A stretch of DNA of 64,000 nt from Terriglobia bacterium (GTDB lineage Bacteria; Acidobacteriota; Terriglobia; Terriglobales; Acidobacteriaceae), in contig JAIQFP010000004.1 in the NCBI GenBank assembly GCA_020073165.1, positions 186,001-250,000 of the forward strand. The letters run 5' to 3'. The notes under the pieces were generated by a model, which saw nothing but the letters and a program-made list of their open reading frames with translations, was not told the origin of the DNA and ran no database searches. How positions within the stretch are numbered: the stretch's first letter is position 1; each line of letters starts with the position of its first letter. Of the stretch, positions 3,992-59,422 are shown piece after piece. Position numbers and translations under genes: made by a program.

Positions 3992-6900
3992 TCAGTAGAA
4001 GTCGTGCGACGGTGGCTGGGCGCGGGTGATGGAAAGCGGCCGCACCCGGTCAGCTTTCACTGAAATCACGTTGTCCTGGTTCTGCAAAACTCCTTCCACC
4101 ATCAAAAACTGCTCAGACGTAAGCAGTAGCCGGTTTTTCTGAAACAGGTCTGGCGTGACGATGGCGTTGGCCACGCCGGTTTCGTCTTCCAGGCTGAGAA
4201 AGACAAAACCTTTGGCGGTGCCGGGACGCTGGCGGGCGATGACGCCTCCGCCAATGCGCACATGCTGGCCGTTGGGAATGCTGCGAAGTTCGCTGGCCTT
4301 GCGGATGCCAAGAGCGGCCATGTGCGCGCGGTGATACGCCATGGGGTGTGGACCTACCGTCAAGCCGGTGCCGCGAAAGTCGGCTACCAGGCGCTCTTCT
4401 CCATTCATGGGGCGCAGCGGAGATTTGGCGTCAGGCTTGGAAAGTTCATCCAGCAGCGGGCCGGAATGGCGGACGGCGCGCTCGACCTGCCAGAGGGCGT
4501 CGCGTCTGTTGAGTTGCGAGTTGCGAGTACCGGGTACCGAGTGAAGATCAGTGCCGATTGAATTCAACGCTCCAATTTCCGCTAAGGTATTCAACTCGTC
4601 CTTGCGCAGTTCGGGGACGCGGTGGACGAGATCGCGAACGGAGGTAAACGGGGCGAGGTTGCGCTGATGAACCAGAGCTTGAGCGGCTTCCTCGCGCAGT
4701 CCGCGGTCATAACGCAGGCCGAGGCGGAGAGCGGGTTCGCCATTGGACTGATTGTGGTCATTCGCATCTTGGCCAACGACCAACGACGAACGACCAACGA
4801 CCGGACTGACAACTGGTTCCAACGTACAAGCCCACTCCGACCGCATGACATCGATCGGGAAGATTTTCAATCCGTGTCGCTGCGCATCTTTCACGATGGT
4901 CGCAGGACGATAGAACCCCATGGGCTGATTGTTCAGCAAAGCGGCGGTGAAAGCTGCCAGGTAATGACATTTCAGGTAGGCGCTGGCATAGGCGATCAGG
5001 GCGAAGCTGGCGGCGTGCGATTCGGGGAACCCGTAGAGGGCGAACGAACTGATGGCGAGGACGATCTCCTCTTGCGCTTCGTGCGCGATGCCATTGCGAG
5101 TCATGCCGGCGCGGAGCCGGATCTCGATTTCTTTCATGCGGGCTTGCGAGCGTTTGAATCCCATGGCGCGGCGCAGTTCTTCGGCTTCGCCGCCCGTGAA
5201 TCCGGCGACGACCATCGCCATGCGCAGCAACTGCTCCTGGAAGAGCGGCACGCCCAGGGTGCGCGCCAGCACCGGTTCGAGCGAAGGATGAGCATAAGTC
5301 ACAGGCTGGCGGCCCTGGCGGCGCTGTAAATAAGGATTCACCATCTGGCCAACGATGGGGCCGGGGCGGATGATCGCCACCTGCACCACGATGTCGTAAA
5401 AACGCTGTGGGCGCAGGCGCGGCAGGCACGACATCTGGGCGCGGCTTTCGATCTGGAACATGCCGATAGTGTCAGCCTGCTGCAGCGCGGAATATACCGT
5501 GGGATCGTCGGGCGGCAGGTGGGCGAGGGCCACTTCCTCTTTGTAACTATCGTGGATGAGCTGGATGGAATCCTCCAGCACGGCCATCATGCCCAGACCG
5601 AGCAGGTCTACCTTAATAATGCCGAGGTCAGCGCAGTCTTCTTTATCCCACTGCACCACCACGCGGCCCGGCATGGATGCGGGTTCGAGCGGGACGACAG
5701 AATCGAGTTGTCCCTGGCAGATGACCATGCCGCCGGAATGCTGACCAAGATGACGGGGCAAATCCTGCACCGCGACGCAAAGTTCGAAATACTTGCGCAG
5801 GCGCGGATGGCGCAGGTCGAGGCCGGCGTCGTGAAAGCGGTGATCTAAGGTATCGTTCTGATCTCGGTATTCCCAGGTGGAAACGGCGGCTGAGACTTTG
5901 TCGAGAGTTTCGGGATCGAAGCCCAGCGCTTTGCCCATTTCGCGTCCGGCCATGCGGCTGCGATAAGTGATGACATTGGCAGTCATAGCGGCGCCGCGCT
6001 CGCCGTAGCGCTGGTACAGATACTGGATGACACGCTCGCGCTGGTCGCCGCTGGGCAGATCGAGATCAATGTCGGGCCACTCGCCACGTTCTTCAGAAAG
6101 AAAACGCTCGAAAAGCAGGTCCATGCCGACGGGATCGACGGCGGTGATGCCAAGCGAGTAGCAGACGGCGCTGTTGGCAGCAGAGCCGCGTCCTTGCGCC
6201 AGAATTTTATGCTCGCGGCAGAAGCGGACCAGGTCCCAGACGATGAGAAAGTAGCCGGCCAGATCGAGTTTTTCGATAAGAGTAAGTTCACGCTCAATCT
6301 GGCGGCGGGCGCGGGTTCGGAGATCGGTTGCCGCCCGGCCATAGCGCTGCTGAAAGCCTTCCCAAGTGCGCTCGCGCAGGAACGACATCATGGTCTCGCC
6401 CACAGGCACGGGATATTTGGGGAACTGGTATCCCAGATCGCTGAGAGCGAATTCAAGGCGTGAAGAAAGCTCGACGGTATGGGCAACGGCCTCGGGCAGG
6501 TCGGCAAAGAGTTGCTCCATCTCTTGCGCTGATTTCAGATGACGCTCGGAGTTGCGCGCCAGCAGGCGTCCGGCGGTGGCCAGCGTGCGATGGTGGCGGA
6601 TGGCAGTGAAAACATCGCAGAGTTCACGCTGGCGGCGCGTGGCATAGCACACGCCGTTGGTGGCCAGCAGCGGAAGCCGGAGGGAGCGCGCCAGTTCGAT
6701 AGCGGCGCGGTTGCGCGCTTCCTGCTCGCGATGGAAGTGACGTTGCAGTTCAACGTAAACATTGGCGTGGCCGAAAATTGCGGCCAGGCGATTGACGGCG
6801 CGGCGCGCTGCTTCCGTGCCGCCATGAGCGAGAGCAACGGCAAGAGGGCCATCATCACCGCCGGTCAGGCAGATGAGTCCGGCTGCGTGTTCTTCGAGTT

Positions 6901-7267
6901 CCGGTTCGCGGACGGCGCCTTCACCTTTTTTTGCGCGCAACTTCATTTTGGTGATCAGGCGGCAGAGATTCTGGTAACCGAGGCGGGAAGCGACGAGAAG
7001 GGGAATGCGAAACTCACCATTGTCATTCCTCGCTTCGCTCAGGATGACACCAGACAAAGTTTTACACGTCACCTCTGCCCCGATGTGCGCCTTCAGTTCC
7101 GCTTTCTTGGCCGCCATGTGGAAGCGGGGCGCGCCGTAAACGCCGTCGCGGTCGAGAAGAGCCATGGCGGGCAGGTTCAGGCTGGCGCAGGTTACTACCA
7201 GATCCTCCGGCAGGGAGGCGCCTTCGAGGAAGCTGAAAGCGGAGCGAGAATGGAGTTCGACGTACAT
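3992..7267 (-). CDS. dnaE2: error-prone DNA polymerase III alpha subunit DnaE2 (ImuC)
   Basis: A 1091-residue C-family polymerase. It opens with the DnaE2-type PHP start MYVELHSRSAFSFLEGAS, has the palm signatures GRGSAANSAVCYSLG and the catalytic aspartates of PDIDLDLPSGD (about residues 405-415), and ends with an OB-fold region. With ImuA and ImuB it carries out damage-induced translesion synthesis. I use the ATG at 7267, since the longer frame runs into imuB. Three segments look inserted relative to the family: residues about 68-82 (palindromic repeat), about 821-832 and about 908-920 (heptad repeats). All keep the frame. The last gene of imuA-imuB-dnaE2. Confidence 0.95.
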   Translation of the reverse strand: MYVELHSRSAFSFLEGASLPEDLVVTCASLNLPAMALLDRDGVYGAPRFHMAAKKAELKAHIGAEVTCKTLSGVILSEARNDNGEFRIPLLVASRLGYQNLCRLITKMKLRAKKGEGAVREPELEEHAAGLICLTGGDDGPLAVALAHGGTEAARRAVNRLAAIFGHANVYVELQRHFHREQEARNRAAIELARSLRLPLLATNGVCYATRRQRELCDVFTAIRHHRTLATAGRLLARNSERHLKSAQEMEQLFADLPEAVAHTVELSSRLEFALSDLGYQFPKYPVPVGETMMSFLRERTWEGFQQRYGRAATDLRTRARRQIERELTLIEKLDLAGYFLIVWDLVRFCREHKILAQGRGSAANSAVCYSLGITAVDPVGMDLLFERFLSEERGEWPDIDLDLPSGDQRERVIQYLYQRYGERGAAMTANVITYRSRMAGREMGKALGFDPETLDKVSAAVSTWEYRDQNDTLDHRFHDAGLDLRHPRLRKYFELCVAVQDLPRHLGQHSGGMVICQGQLDSVVPLEPASMPGRVVVQWDKEDCADLGIIKVDLLGLGMMAVLEDSIQLIHDSYKEEVALAHLPPDDPTVYSALQQADTIGMFQIESRAQMSCLPRLRPQRFYDIVVQVAIIRPGPIVGQMVNPYLQRRQGRQPVTYAHPSLEPVLARTLGVPLFQEQLLRMAMVVAGFTGGEAEELRRAMGFKRSQARMKEIEIRLRAGMTRNGIAHEAQEEIVLAISSFALYGFPESHAASFALIAYASAYLKCHYLAAFTAALLNNQPMGFYRPATIVKDAQRHGLKIFPIDVMRSEWACTLEPVVSPVVGRSSLVVGQDANDHNQSNGEPALRLGLRYDRGLREEAAQALVHQRNLAPFTSVRDLVHRVPELRKDELNTLAEIGALNSIGTDLHSVPGTRNSQLNRRDALWQVERAVRHSGPLLDELSKPDAKSPLRPMNGEERLVADFRGTGLTVGPHPMAYHRAHMAALGIRKASELRSIPNGQHVRIGGGVIARQRPGTAKGFVFLSLEDETGVANAIVTPDLFQKNRLLLTSEQFLMVEGVLQNQDNVISVKADRVRPLSITRAQPPSHDFY
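4509..4544. repeat. heptad repeat inside dnaE2
   Basis: Heptads GAGTTGC, GAGTTGC, GAGTACC, GGGTACC, GAGTG on the plus strand. Read as part of dnaE2 (minus) they give SVPGTRNSQLN, a segment that looks foreign to the family. Confidence 0.75.
4773..4805. repeat. heptad repeat inside dnaE2
   Basis: Period-7 array CCAACGA, CCAACGA, CGAACGA, CCAACGA, CCGG. Translated on the minus strand it gives VVGRSSLVVGQ within dnaE2. The same GACCAAC heptad recurs between genes at 32547 and 63501. Confidence 0.8.
7021..7049. repeat. palindromic repeat (family B) inside dnaE2
   Basis: TGTCATTCCT and AGGATGACA form the arms of a 29-bp inverted repeat with the core CGCTTCGCTC. This TGTCAT...ATGACA type is a familiar dispersed bacterial repeat. 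Here it is translated in frame as SGVILSEARND near the DnaE2 N-terminus. Confidence 0.75.
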
Positions 7268-7281
7268 GATTCCAATTTCAT

Positions 7282-8901
7282 TCAGTCGTAGGTGCCTTCC
7301 ACGAACCATCCTCCGCTGAGCAGATCGCGCACCAGGCGGTAGAGCGCGAGGCCGGTCTCGGCCTGCAGAGCGATGTCCCATTCGTCGCGGGACCAGCCCT
7401 CTTGCTGCCACCAGTCGCCGGAGGAGCGCCATGGCCCGGCCACCCAGACGATTTCCCCCTGGAGTTCCGGGCGCTTGGGACAGGCGATACGCGTGGGCCG
7501 GCCGTCGTATAACGTCACCGTCGCCCGCATGGGAGGGCGGAACAGGCGCAGCGCAGTGACAGCATCGCTGGGTTCACCGGCTGGCTTTCGGGTGGCGGAA
7601 GGCTTGCCCCCTTGCGGTTCGACTGGAGCGAAGCGCTGTATGCGGAACGCGTCTGGACGATGACTATCCAGCAACTCCAAACATCCGACTTTGTTTTGGC
7701 CGACGATGCCGGCAATTCTCGCCAGTGTGAGCTCGAGCTTTTCCGGTTCCGGCGAAGGCGGAAGGAACAGGCCACTCTGCGCGGCGCGCGGACGCACAGG
7801 TTCGGCGGCAAGATGGATTTTCACAATCGGCGCGCCGGGCGGATGCGCTTTGAGATCAAGCTGCAGCAGCTTGAGGAAAGTCCTGGCGTCCAGCAGAGGG
7901 ACGGGGAGGCGCAGGGTACGGCGGAAAGCTTGCCGAGCCGGGGCTCGGCCTGGACGGACGAGGGCGTCCGTCCCCACGTGGGTGGTCGTGGATTCTTCTT
8001 CCTGCCATCCGCTTTCCAACTCCAGCTGCAGCCGCAATTCCTGGGTTGCCAGGGCGCGCGCGGCCAGGCGAGCGCACAATTGCTCCAGCAACCGGCCCAG
8101 CAGGAAGGCCAGCGGTTCCAGCAGGACCAGGGGATATTCCAGTTCGATGACTTCTTCAAAAATCAGCGGTGGCTCGACTGGAACCAGCGTGCGCGAGGTC
8201 GCGCCACGGGCCAATTGCTGCAGGCGGACGCCTTGCTGCCCCAGGCGTTCGCTAAGGGCTACATCCGGCAATGCGGCAAGAGCCCGCAGATTGCGCACTC
8301 CCCAGCGAGCCAAGGTTTCCAGAAGCCGCTCAGGCTCCTGTCCGTCGTCGAAGAGCTTGGGATCTGCGAACAAAACTTCCAGGGGGAGATTCCCTAACTG
8401 TTCGGCTTCTTTTCCGGCGGGGACTACGAGGACCCCAAAAAATCCCCGGGCCGCTAGCACCGCCGTGTCCGGGTTGGAGGCTATGGCAACATTGGCTTCC
8501 ACGCCGAGGTCCGAGGCGCGGCGGGCCAGGTCGCGGCCGATCTTGGGCAGTTCGCCAAAAAGTGTTTCCAGCCCGGCCAGGTCGAGCAGGATGGTGTCGC
8601 AGGCGGCATCTTCCACGCGCGGCGAAAAAGACTGGGCGCAATCCAGCAAGGCGGCGTGCGTGGCGGCTTCCTGCAGGGGAGAGCGCGGGCGCAATACCAG
8701 GCCGGCACAGGCCTCCACCTGCAGCCTGGTCATGCCGGGTTCCACGCCTGCGTGGCGGGCCTTTTCATTCACCGCCAAGACTATCTGCAGCGGGGCTTTG
8801 CCTTCGAGCACGGCCACGGCCTGCGGGCGCAGCTCCGGCTCGGCGCGCAGCAGCGCCTCCAGGGGAAAATCGGGAACGAAGATGCAGGCGAAGGCAGTCA
8901 T
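7282..8901 (-). CDS. imuB: Y-family-like mutagenesis protein ImuB
   Basis: A 539-residue Y-family DNA polymerase homologue starting MTAFACIFVPDFPLEALLR. ImuB proteins lack catalytic acidic residues and act as the hub that ties ImuA, DnaE2 and the beta clamp together. Here the palm region is likewise not a good match to an active DinB. The ATG is at 8901, and the stop lies 14 bases before the dnaE2 start. Residues about 305-324 (GTDALVRPGRAP) are encoded by a GC-rich hairpin repeat at 7932-7982 and look like an in-frame insertion. Confidence 0.92.
   Translation of the reverse strand: MTAFACIFVPDFPLEALLRAEPELRPQAVAVLEGKAPLQIVLAVNEKARHAGVEPGMTRLQVEACAGLVLRPRSPLQEAATHAALLDCAQSFSPRVEDAACDTILLDLAGLETLFGELPKIGRDLARRASDLGVEANVAIASNPDTAVLAARGFFGVLVVPAGKEAEQLGNLPLEVLFADPKLFDDGQEPERLLETLARWGVRNLRALAALPDVALSERLGQQGVRLQQLARGATSRTLVPVEPPLIFEEVIELEYPLVLLEPLAFLLGRLLEQLCARLAARALATQELRLQLELESGWQEEESTTTHVGTDALVRPGRAPARQAFRRTLRLPVPLLDARTFLKLLQLDLKAHPPGAPIVKIHLAAEPVRPRAAQSGLFLPPSPEPEKLELTLARIAGIVGQNKVGCLELLDSHRPDAFRIQRFAPVEPQGGKPSATRKPAGEPSDAVTALRLFRPPMRATVTLYDGRPTRIACPKRPELQGEIVWVAGPWRSSGDWWQQEGWSRDEWDIALQAETGLALYRLVRDLLSGGWFVEGTYD
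7932..7982. repeat. two-hairpin GC-rich repeat (family C, copy 2) inside imuB
   Basis: GCCGAGCC/GGCTCGGC hairpin followed by GGACGGACG/CGTCCGTCC hairpin. The organisation matches 49-90. It is translated in the imuB frame. Confidence 0.65.
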
Positions 8902-8943: not shown

Positions 8944-9822
8944 CTACAAAATCCGCACCGCTTTGGTGGCGAAGGCGGTCGTAGCCGATCGCACCGGCTT
9001 GCGTTCCAGGCGCGAATGCAGCAGTTCTCCTTCGACTTCGAGTTGATCCAGAAGTTGCGCGTGAGCCGGTGACGTTTTCCCTGACGGCTGATGGCTGAAG
9101 GCTGACGGCTTCTTTCCCGGCTGAAGTTTCAGCAGCAGCGCAGCGCAACTGGGGGCGCATGGCGCCTCGGCGATGACGAACAGCACGGTAGGCGTGTTCT
9201 CCACGGCGCGTTGAAAACGAAACCAGGAGGTCAGTGGGATGCGGCGCGCGGCACGGTATGGAATCCCGCCCAGATCAATGGCCACCATCCCAAAGCCGCC
9301 GCTTTGCAAAAGCAGATCGGTGACGCGGAGCGCCTGCTCCAGCGAATCGTCCATTCGAGAGTGGCGATCGTTTTGATGGTTCTTTGTCTTCTCTGCAGCT
9401 CTAGTCCTGAGCGCAAGCTTCTTTCCTCCGCACCGCACCCACAGCAATTGTTCGAAGTCCACACCTGCCGCGGCCGCAGACACAGGATCGAAAGCATCGC
9501 TGGCATCCACCAGGGCGCAAGCTTCCTGCCGTTGAGTAGCTGCCGCCAGAGCGGCCACCAGCACGCTGGTCCGTCCTGAAGAGGCAGGTCCGCAAATTTC
9601 CGTCAGGCATCCCCGCGGCAACCCGCCGGTGAGGGCGTCGAATTCGCGGATGCCGCTGGAAACCATTTCCGGCGCGGGCCGCACCTCGAGGCGAGAGGCC
9701 GGAGCAACTCCGGCGAGCTTGGGTATGGCAGACAGGCGGCTCAGAAGGAACGCGGATCGTTCCTGGGGAAAAGCAACGGAATAGCCCGGCGCGGGCTGGG
9801 CGCAAACGAGCGGGGAAGACAT
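8944..9822 (-). CDS. imuA: RecA-like mutagenesis protein ImuA
   Basis: A 292-residue RecA/SulA-like ATPase-fold protein. A P-loop-like GPASSGRTS lies near residue 80 and a conserved FDALTGGLPRGCLTEI stretch precedes it. ImuA partners ImuB in SOS-type mutagenesis. I prefer the ATG at 9822 (GAGG six bases upstream) to the TTG at 9849. Residues about 238-248 (PSAFSHQPSGK) come from a heptad array, after which the sequence resumes as VEGELLHSRLERKPVRS, which looks like native ImuA. First gene of imuA-imuB-dnaE2. Confidence 0.88.
   Translation of the reverse strand: MSSPLVCAQPAPGYSVAFPQERSAFLLSRLSAIPKLAGVAPASRLEVRPAPEMVSSGIREFDALTGGLPRGCLTEICGPASSGRTSVLVAALAAATQRQEACALVDASDAFDPVSAAAAGVDFEQLLWVRCGGKKLALRTRAAEKTKNHQNDRHSRMDDSLEQALRVTDLLLQSGGFGMVAIDLGGIPYRAARRIPLTSWFRFQRAVENTPTVLFVIAEAPCAPSCAALLLKLQPGKKPSAFSHQPSGKTSPAHAQLLDQLEVEGELLHSRLERKPVRSATTAFATKAVRIL
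9080..9111. repeat. heptad repeat inside imuA
   Basis: Heptads CCTGACG, GCTGATG, GCTGAAG, GCTGACG. In frame with imuA, and inverted relative to 8904-8933. Confidence 0.75.
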
Positions 9823-9950
9823 AAGAACCTCGAAAATTTCAGGGAGCAACGAAGCCGGAAAGGCCTCGTGGCGAACGCGGAATATTTCGCTTTTTATTCG
9901 CCTTCGAGATTCTGCTACTGCCGCGAGGAGGCTGTCAAGGCAATTTATAA

Positions 9951-58135: not shown

Positions 58136-59422
58136 ATGGCAACGTCCAGAGTGCCCTCGGCGAACACAAGGTCCCTCGACTCCGCGATTCGCTTGCGGGG
58201 CAAGCGAACCGCTCCGCTCGGGATGACAGAGAGTGGGAGCACGAGAAAGAGTGCTGGACGATTTGGCCCGTATGGCGGGCGCTACGTTCCCGAAACCCTG
58301 ATGGCGGCACTTCAGGAGCTGGAACGCCAATACGAGAAGGCCAAGCGCGACCGCAAGTTTCAAGCCCGGCTCGATGAACTGCTACGCACCTACGCTGGGC
58401 GTCCGACGCCTCTGTTCTTTGCGCAGCGGCTGACCCGGCGGCTGGGGGGCGCGAAGATCTATCTCAAGCGCGAGGACCTCCTCCACACCGGAGCGCACAA
58501 GATCAACAACTGCCTGGGGCAGGCGCTGCTGGCCGAGCGTATGGGGAAGCGCCGGATCATCGCCGAGACCGGCGCCGGGCAGCATGGGGTAGCCACGGCC
58601 ACAGTGTGCGCGCTGTTCGGCTTCGAGTGCGTGGTCTACATGGGCACCGAGGACATGCGGCGGCAGGAGCTGAACGTCTTCCGCATGCGGCTGCTGGGTG
58701 CTGAAGTGCGCGGCGTGGAATCCGGTTCGCGCACCCTCAAAGACGCCATCAACGAAGCCATGCGCGATTGGGTGACCAATGTCCGCAGCACGCATTACCT
58801 GCTCGGCAGCGTGCTGGGCGCGCACCCTTATCCCACCATGGTGCGCGACTTTCACAAAGTAATTGGGCGCGAGGCGCGGGCGCAGATACTCAAGGCTGAG
58901 GGCAAGCTGCCGGCGGCCATCATCGCCTGTGTGGGCGGCGGGTCGAATGCCATTGGCATCTTTCATGAGTTTCTGAAAGACAAGAAGGTGAGATTGGTCG
59001 GCGTAGAAGCTGGCGGACGGGGCGACGCGCTCGGTGAGCACGCAGCGCGCTTCCGTGGCGGCTCGCCGGGTGTGCTGCAAGGAAGCTACTCTTACGTCTT
59101 GCAGGATGCTGCCGGGCAGATTGCGACCACTCACTCGGTTTCTGCGGGGCTCGACTACCCCTCGATTGGTCCCGAGCACGCGTGGCTCAGGGATAGCGGC
59201 CGCGCGGAATATGTTCCCGCGTCGGACGAAGAAGCACTGGCAGGATGTACCTTGCTGGCCCGGACGGAAGGGATCATTCCGGCGCTGGAATCGGCGCATG
59301 CAGTGGCCGAAGTGGTCAAGCGTGCCCCAAAGATGGAAAACTCGGAGATTGTAATCGTGAACATCTCCGGACGCGGGGACAAAGACATGGGAATCCTAAA
59401 GGAGAAGCTGAAGCTGGATTAG
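58136..59422 (+). CDS. trpB: tryptophan synthase beta chain with repeat-derived leader
   Basis: A 428-residue PLP enzyme joining indole and serine. The PLP Lys is in HTGAHKINN, and the phosphate loop is [10 protein letters not shown]. The family body begins at about residue 42 ([16 protein letters not shown]). The residues before it are encoded largely by a palindromic repeat (58169-58229), translated as [20 protein letters not shown]. The ATG at 58136 is coupled to the trpF stop. The ATG at 58223, inside the repeat, is a plausible alternative start and would give a normal length. Confidence 0.92.
58169..58229. repeat. palindromic repeat (family B) at the trpB leader
   Basis: Minus-strand reading: TGTCATCCCGAGCGGAGCGG, then a CTTGCCCCGCAAG hairpin and GAGTCGAGGGACCT. 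It shares the TGTCATyCC...GAGCG type with the copy inside dnaE2 (7021-7049). Confidence 0.7.

Follow-up and report, generated by a model that had tools for sequence, protein, structure and literature searches.

The imuC locus of the window

The window, the whole 64,000-nt stretch of Terriglobia bacterium DNA analysed here, carries the error-prone polymerase gene dnaE2 (imuC) on its minus strand, next to two reading frames which, from gene order, we take to be the Y-family-like partner imuB and the RecA-like partner imuA (Table 1). The imuC open reading frame spans 3992-7432, with the ATG at 7267 as its likely start. A first-pass annotation of this DNA had described a palindromic TGTCAT...ATGACA repeat translated inside the PHP domain of dnaE2. 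The 29-bp element is present exactly as claimed. A TGTCAT-gap-ATGACA arrangement would be expected 0.04 times by chance in the window. It is read in frame on the coding minus strand, inside the Pfam PHP match, as TCKTLSG-VILSEARND-NGEFRIP, in which VILSEARND represents ImuC residues 74-82 counted from the ATG at 7267. As a repeat the element stood up, but as a palindrome it is weak when taken alone: its inverted-repeat score is 7 (shuffle p = 0.32), the repeat search found no inverted repeat of at least 12 bp at this place, and its DNA fold has z = -2.28. The element is therefore significant because it is repeated in the genome (41 matches to its end motif) and not by its palindromicity.

Table 1 Features of the window and repeat elements of related loci
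Feature	Location	Strand	Basis or remark
Collapsed A-family palindromic repeat (putative), read as VILSEARND	7021..7049	-	Sequence, genome motif matches
dnaE2/imuC, error-prone C-family DNA polymerase	3992..7267	-	Pfam PHP, polymerase, HHH and OB domains; relatives
Hot spot I, PHP-domain beta-hairpin loop, slice GAEVT...FRIP	7001..7081	-	Repeat inserts in relatives; pLDDT < 50 at residues 72-83
Hot spot II segment EPVVSPVVGRSSLVVGQDANDHNQSNGEPA	4730..4819	-	24 aa beyond core; pLDDT < 50 at residues 822-842
Hot spot III segment SIGTDLHSVPGTRNSQLNRR	4502..4561	-	Window insert <15 aa; pLDDT < 50 at residues 908-917
imuB (presumed)	7282..8901	-	ORF; tblastn relatives upstream of imuC in 93/106 loci
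imuB stretch with repeat-like segment TTTHVGTDALVRPGRAP, in frame	7912..8016	-	By eye
imuA (presumed)	8944..9849	-	ORF
Repeat-like KPSAFSHQPSGK within imuA, in frame	9046-9111	-	By eye
Second A-family end motif of the window	58210..58227	+	5' side of PLP-enzyme gene resembling trpB
Acido-Lenti-1 in ImuC	L096:7151-7197, L128:7123-7168, L140:7077-7122, L141:7207-7252	antisense	Rfam
Acido-Lenti-1 in ImuC	L142:7095-7140 and 7184-7230, L086:2922-2967, L074:1465-1510	antisense	Rfam
Acido-Lenti-1 inverted around Y1_Tnp (RAYT-like) gene	L266, L270, L271, L272, L274, L277, L281, L283, L186, L187
A-end inverted pair around GIY-YIG gene	L284, L290, L291, L292, L298, L318, L319, L322, L327, L332

A dispersed repeat translated in unrelated genes

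A genome-wide search for copies, with scoring of those in coding frames, identified a dispersed repeat, hereafter family A, that is in frame in dnaE2, lipB and mnmG. The 18-nt end motif of A matches 41 places (24 exactly) in the 4.6-Mb window genome, against none for its reversed control, and it occurs in 46 of 61 genomes, with a total of five control matches over all 61. In lipB and mnmG of the window genome, the repeat lies in frame within the Pfam domain match. All 41 window-genome copies were scanned for open frames, 14 were followed and eight besides imuC were sent to Pfam; several of the others sit upstream of a likely gene start and may lie outside the coding sequence. The compact 29-bp form occurs once in the window genome and, with up to two mismatches, once each in three of the 60 other genomes. 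The residues vary in the ImuC family, and only this presumably collapsed form is unique.

The first-pass annotation had likened the element to those of Rickettsia, and a repeat with palindromic ends that is dispersed and translated in at least three genes, dnaE2 among them, supports the parallel. Rickettsia palindromic elements (RPE) are described as palindromic DNA translated in unrelated genes (Ogata et al. 2000, 2002; as cited in PMC10969869 and PMC3733652). The likeness is one of the kind of phenomenon: copies of A are dispersed and palindromic, the window copy itself weakly so, they are in frame in three unrelated genes of the window genome (imuC, lipB and mnmG), and the peptide is tolerated. 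As far as RPE are described in these sources, the present case differs in its phylum, presumably another one, and in that several repeat families share one loop of orthologous imuC genes.

A second repeat, family B, is also dispersed, its motif being found in 28 of the 61 genomes with 326 matches against 51 for the reversed pattern (both summed), a weaker control than that for A. Searching with a degenerate genome pattern yielded chance matches by the thousand and was abandoned; loci L001-L030 from that search served only in one all-loci scan. In the first 63 nt of free A copies (L240-L263), the inner-stem letters vary and, by eye, mostly stay complementary.

Repeat families in the hot spot I loop of ImuC

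ImuC was compared among the 30 best-scoring loci and the best 80 of 593 further loci, the latter carrying Acidobacteriota taxon names (judged from the names); four duplicates (L095, L105, L115 and L146) were removed before counting, giving 106 distinct loci including the window. The aligned proteins have three insertion hot spots, namely the PHP loop (hot spot I) and reference residues 826-850 (II) and 912-925 (III). The hot spot I loop is in frame in all 106 loci and contains stops in none, in a sample chosen as best-scoring in which broken genes may be under-sampled; both flank frames were found independently.

The loop varies from 39 to 228 nt. The earlier statement that relatives have a short loop at this place is correct for 43 loops of at most 51 nt, but not for 24 loops of 93 nt and 39 of other lengths (57-228 nt). 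Nearly all 93-nt loops (23 of 24) share a conserved WLPH-type form. According to simple regular-expression motif rules, the 106 loops comprise 43 short, 23 WLPH-type, nine A, six B, three C, three D, one A+B, one B+D and 17 other loops; the palindromic repeat families that occupy this loop thus number at least four, some loops hold none, and among the 39 loops of other lengths 16 are without an assigned family. In a palindrome test against shuffles (p <= 0.01), 18 of 106 loops pass, including 17 of 28 with at least 96 nt and one of 11 with 57-90 nt, and none of the 43 short or the 24 93-nt loops does. The loop class changes at least 23 times on the ImuC tree, a quick tree without bootstrap in which insert columns were left out, and close relatives differ in class (L067 B, L128 other, L141 D).

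VILSEARND is absent from the short-loop and WLPH-loop loci, and the codon offset of the insert is identical between VILS of the window and seven relatives with full-length A. The window form is most simply explained as a collapsed copy or remnant of the longer palindrome carried by these relatives; judging from the sequence, it would join the full-length element's left end to the final 9 bases of the right end. On the ImuC tree, the window lies outside the clade with full-length A, and common descent of the insert is thus unsupported there.

Repeats inside or beside the remnants of other repeats were seen by eye within single loops (L093:4722-4861, L100:4401-4628, L085:3979-4101 and L072:1324-1521). 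These comprise a small repeat inside A in L093, B-arm remnants next to an A repeat in L100 and to a D repeat in L085, and, in L072, B arms flanking another palindrome on both sides.

Inserts in other ImuC loops and in the neighbouring genes

Inserts of at least 12 aa are present at hot spot II in 39 and at hot spot III in 41 of the 106 genes, among which 15 and 18, respectively, are palindromic (an earlier run gave 14 and 19). The hot spot II segment of the window is not significantly palindromic (p = 0.23). Different hairpin repeats stand in frame in the three ImuC loops of related genera. In a uniform count of inserts of at least 12 aa, ImuC has 144, with 46 palindromic, ImuB has 72, with 10 palindromic (counted on 82 of 93 ORFs, those of at least 400 aa), and DnaE1, the sole non-cassette gene serving as insert control, has two, with none palindromic. 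Inverted repeats with a score of at least 20 number 34 in 106 ImuC genes (shuffled, 4.2), 15 in 93 ImuB genes (1.2) and none in 40 DnaE1 genes (0.2); with a score of at least 18, the numbers are 53 (14.4), 25 (8.0) and two (3.6), respectively. A score of 16 was too loose, with 44 matches in shuffled ImuC, and 18, 20 and 22 were used instead. The genes for DnaE1, the replicative paralogue, were assigned as the second match with roughly 30% identity; they represent 40 of the 61 genomes, and 27 of these 40 are among the 30 ImuC-yielding genomes.

A structure model of the window ImuC, based on a shallow alignment and with a moderate mean pLDDT of 68.7, has pLDDT < 50 at all three hot spots, parts of the core being of low confidence too. 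Hot spot I is located between the modelled strands 59-69 and 85-92, and its loop is probably disordered. The L096 model, with a low mean pLDDT of 61.3, has residues 72-117 below 50 and was used for that alone.

Divergence of full-length A inserts

The full-length A element in ImuC of the seven relatives is 116 bp long in six and 140 bp in L093, which has a nested repeat; the copies start with TGTCAT and end with ATGACA. Over all 21 pairs of the seven genes, pN/pS is 0.93 in the insert versus 0.14 in the gene body, and the peptide of the insert is not conserved. Among the six genes with a 116-bp copy, the three codon positions diverge by 0.156/0.223/0.161 in the insert and by 0.112/0.061/0.420 in the body, third positions in the insert changing about 0.4 times as fast as in the body with no codon periodicity. 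Paired columns of the insert diverge by 0.138 and unpaired columns by 0.313. The consensus fold of these six copies has 45 pairs, 8 of them doubly changed. Columns 1-13 pair with columns 104-116 (12 pairs), forming terminal inverted repeats as in MITEs; the loop sequence on either side of the insert is too variable for a clean alignment with an empty site. Pairing in the inner 13-bp stem amounts to 93.6%, and six of its pairs have double changes; shuffles average 2.2 double changes and only 1 of 500 reaches six, and slid controls give 1-2. L093 was left out of the fold and codon-position analyses on account of its nested repeat and kept in pN/pS. The inserted DNA thus appears to evolve as a hairpin and not as a peptide.

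In the first 63 nt, the best-matching A copies outside ImuC have a similarity of 0.81-0.94 to ImuC copies, compared with a mean of 0.79-0.88 among the ImuC copies themselves and 0.61-0.65 for the average outside copy. Because the best outside copies thus reach the level of similarity seen within ImuC, exchange or re-insertion may explain the kept pairing.

Candidate partners of the repeats

With up to two mismatches, A ends were found near small stand-alone GIY-YIG genes in 21 of 34 loci (or 17 of 30 once the window genome is left out), near UvrC-size GIY-YIG genes in none of 14 loci and at DnaE1 loci in none of 40; 13 of the 34 small GIY-YIG loci are without an A end. At 0, 1, 2 and 3 mismatches, the numbers are 8, 14, 21 and 25 of 34 for small GIY-YIG, none of 14 throughout for UvrC-size, 0, 1, 1 and 3 of 32 for Y1_Tnp, and 0, 0, 0 and 3 of 40 for DnaE1 loci. 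The DnaE1 and UvrC loci together have one A end in 195,680 bp. An inverted pair of A ends surrounds the small GIY-YIG gene in 10 of 35 loci, a count that includes L330, which overlaps L319 and was left out of the 34. The small set leaves out six further matches with open frames of 261-394 aa and includes four window-genome genes, one of which, C23, prompted the idea and was added despite exceeding the size limit (open frame of 405 aa, running into the next gene). Each of the four small GIY-YIG matches of the window genome has an A end no more than about 120 bp away. The small GIY-YIG nuclease is a possible candidate partner of the A repeat, itself present in 46 of 61 genomes. A search of the literature, covering titles and the starts of abstracts for part of the matches, found no paper linking GIY-YIG to palindromic repeats or REPs. 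The idea that A ends are the terminal repeats of Y1_Tnp genes was rejected: none of 32 Y1_Tnp loci has an A end at up to 500 bp from the centre, and one of 32 has in a wider frame.

Among 50 scanned sources, the window included, the Rfam family Acido-Lenti-1 (RF01687) lies inside ImuC in seven and inside ImuA in four, in frame and in antisense orientation, the ImuA genes being recognised by eye. All eight ImuC elements are at reference residue 840. The window has no RF01687 covariance-model match above the gathering score. The family is dispersed, with matches at E <= 0.001 in 36 of 61 genomes, 33 of them over the cut-off, and 21 matches in the window genome. As in REP/RAYT systems, in which the repeat flanks a Y1 gene, and unlike A, Acido-Lenti-1 adjoins the Y1_Tnp gene at 16 of the 32 loci and lies on both sides, inverted, at 10; 20 of the 32 places follow list order after L187, with G058:C37 passed over, and some of these 20 had been noticed beforehand as near Acido-Lenti-1. 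In the window genome, none of six Y1 genes is adjoined by Acido-Lenti-1. The arrangement suggests that the Acido-Lenti-1 "RNA" is a transposase-associated terminal hairpin.

Interpretation

The most probable reading, which we hold with good though not full confidence, is that the window element is a copy of the dispersed family A repeat which lives in a protein-coding gene, is tolerated in a loop of ImuC and evolves in a hairpin-like manner. It would be one of many such repeats that pass through the imu genes of these bacteria. We infer that they reach their sites by transposition, with the driving enzyme acting in trans. A may be moved by units encoding small GIY-YIG nucleases and the Acido-Lenti-1 repeat perhaps by Y1/RAYT-like transposases, and more repeat families with their own transposases likely exist. 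Most landings in genes would be purged, and those in tolerant loops of a dispensable SOS mutasome would survive if the frame is kept; dnaE2 is nonessential in every genetic study cited by PMC3919608 in the part concerned. Pairing may then be maintained by selection on structure, by template-switch correction or by exchange with other copies, and the inserts would turn over, nest and collapse.

Target choice, instead of protein tolerance, could account for the clustering if an old palindromic insertion had served as a landing pad and later repeats preferred hairpin DNA. The nested and adjoining repeats seen by eye in L072, L100, L085 and L093 fit such a history, but inserts of this kind occur in three separate ImuC loops and in ImuB and ImuA too, all three ImuC sites are low-confidence loops of the model, as tolerance would have it, and DnaE1 is without such inserts. 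We consider a landing pad rather unlikely.

The slow third positions of the full-length insert without codon periodicity, the lower divergence of paired columns, the compensatory changes in the inner stem and the recurrence at one site of differing sequences of hairpin character would also agree with a hairpin selected for a cis effect on imuC or its messenger, which would slow translation and tune the amount of polymerase, the peptide being a by-product. However, free A copies are complementary as well (by eye), so that pairing appears to be a trait of the family and not specific to imuC, exchange with free copies is possible, and 43 of 106 loops, at 51 nt or less, are too short for a full-length element; selection in cis is improbable in our judgement. 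We give similarly little credence to the further-reaching combination in which A would be the terminal repeat of an undescribed GIY-YIG-driven mobile unit and the imuC hairpin, and not its peptide, would be selected for acting in cis on the SOS mutagenesis polymerase, as a brake or a sensor, while hairpins of unrelated sequence would take each other's place in the loop.

It is very improbable that the loop residues form a functional, conserved segment of ImuC with a coincidental palindrome. The 23 loci with a conserved WLPH-type loop indicate that selection is possible in some lineages, but VILSEARND is missing from short and WLPH loops, the end motif has 41 genome matches versus none for its control, and pN/pS of the A insert is near 1. 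Hairpins inside reading frames mark known bypassing elements, but a segment skipped by the ribosome or removed by RNA splicing needs neither frame nor freedom from stops, and with both kept in all 106 loops such removal is scarcely credible and was rejected.

Protein-coding palindromes, best known from Rickettsia, have here a natural series in one error-prone polymerase gene: the same three loops in 106 loci hold differing hairpins, are short or are empty, and tolerance versus altered mutagenesis becomes testable.

Relation to described repeats

Intragenic palindromes in Rickettsia and REPs in DnaE2 have already been published; the mobilisers are possibly new here. The sections of Di Nocera et al. 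2013 (PMC3733652) on intragenic REPs report that GTAG/CGTC REPs occur within DnaE2 and further genes of DNA synthesis and repair, at different sites apart from recB, and put forward both a neutral-loop and a mutator (mutability) idea, an effect of such inserts on mutagenesis thus having been raised in 2013. An insert in DnaE2 of Acidobacteria is not described in that text on intragenic REPs, and unlike GTAG/CGTC REPs, neither the 29-bp nor the full-length A has GTAG or CGTC at its ends.

Acido-Lenti-1 was listed as a probable RNA, probably not cis-regulatory (Weinberg et al. 2010, PMC2864571, in its entry on this motif); it is also named in PMC10059132, and its function is described as little known in the relevant passage of PMC13298647 (2026). 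In contrast to that listing as RNA, it is here a dispersed repeat beside Y1_Tnp genes, in frame in ImuC and ImuA. An Rfam "non-coding RNA" that behaves like a repeat associated with transposases, and whose copies in some genes are translated, matters by itself. The TIRtrons/TIRYT of Acidobacteria, Y1-type transposase genes flanked by inverted repeats of which some are genome-repeated (PMC3733652), resemble Acido-Lenti-1 in this flanking; the TIRtron/TIRYT section of that paper does not mention Rfam Acido-Lenti-1, and the likeness to its Koribacter repeats is one by description. In the window genome, the Y1_Tnp genes at L228, L232 and L233 are flanked by other inverted repeats.
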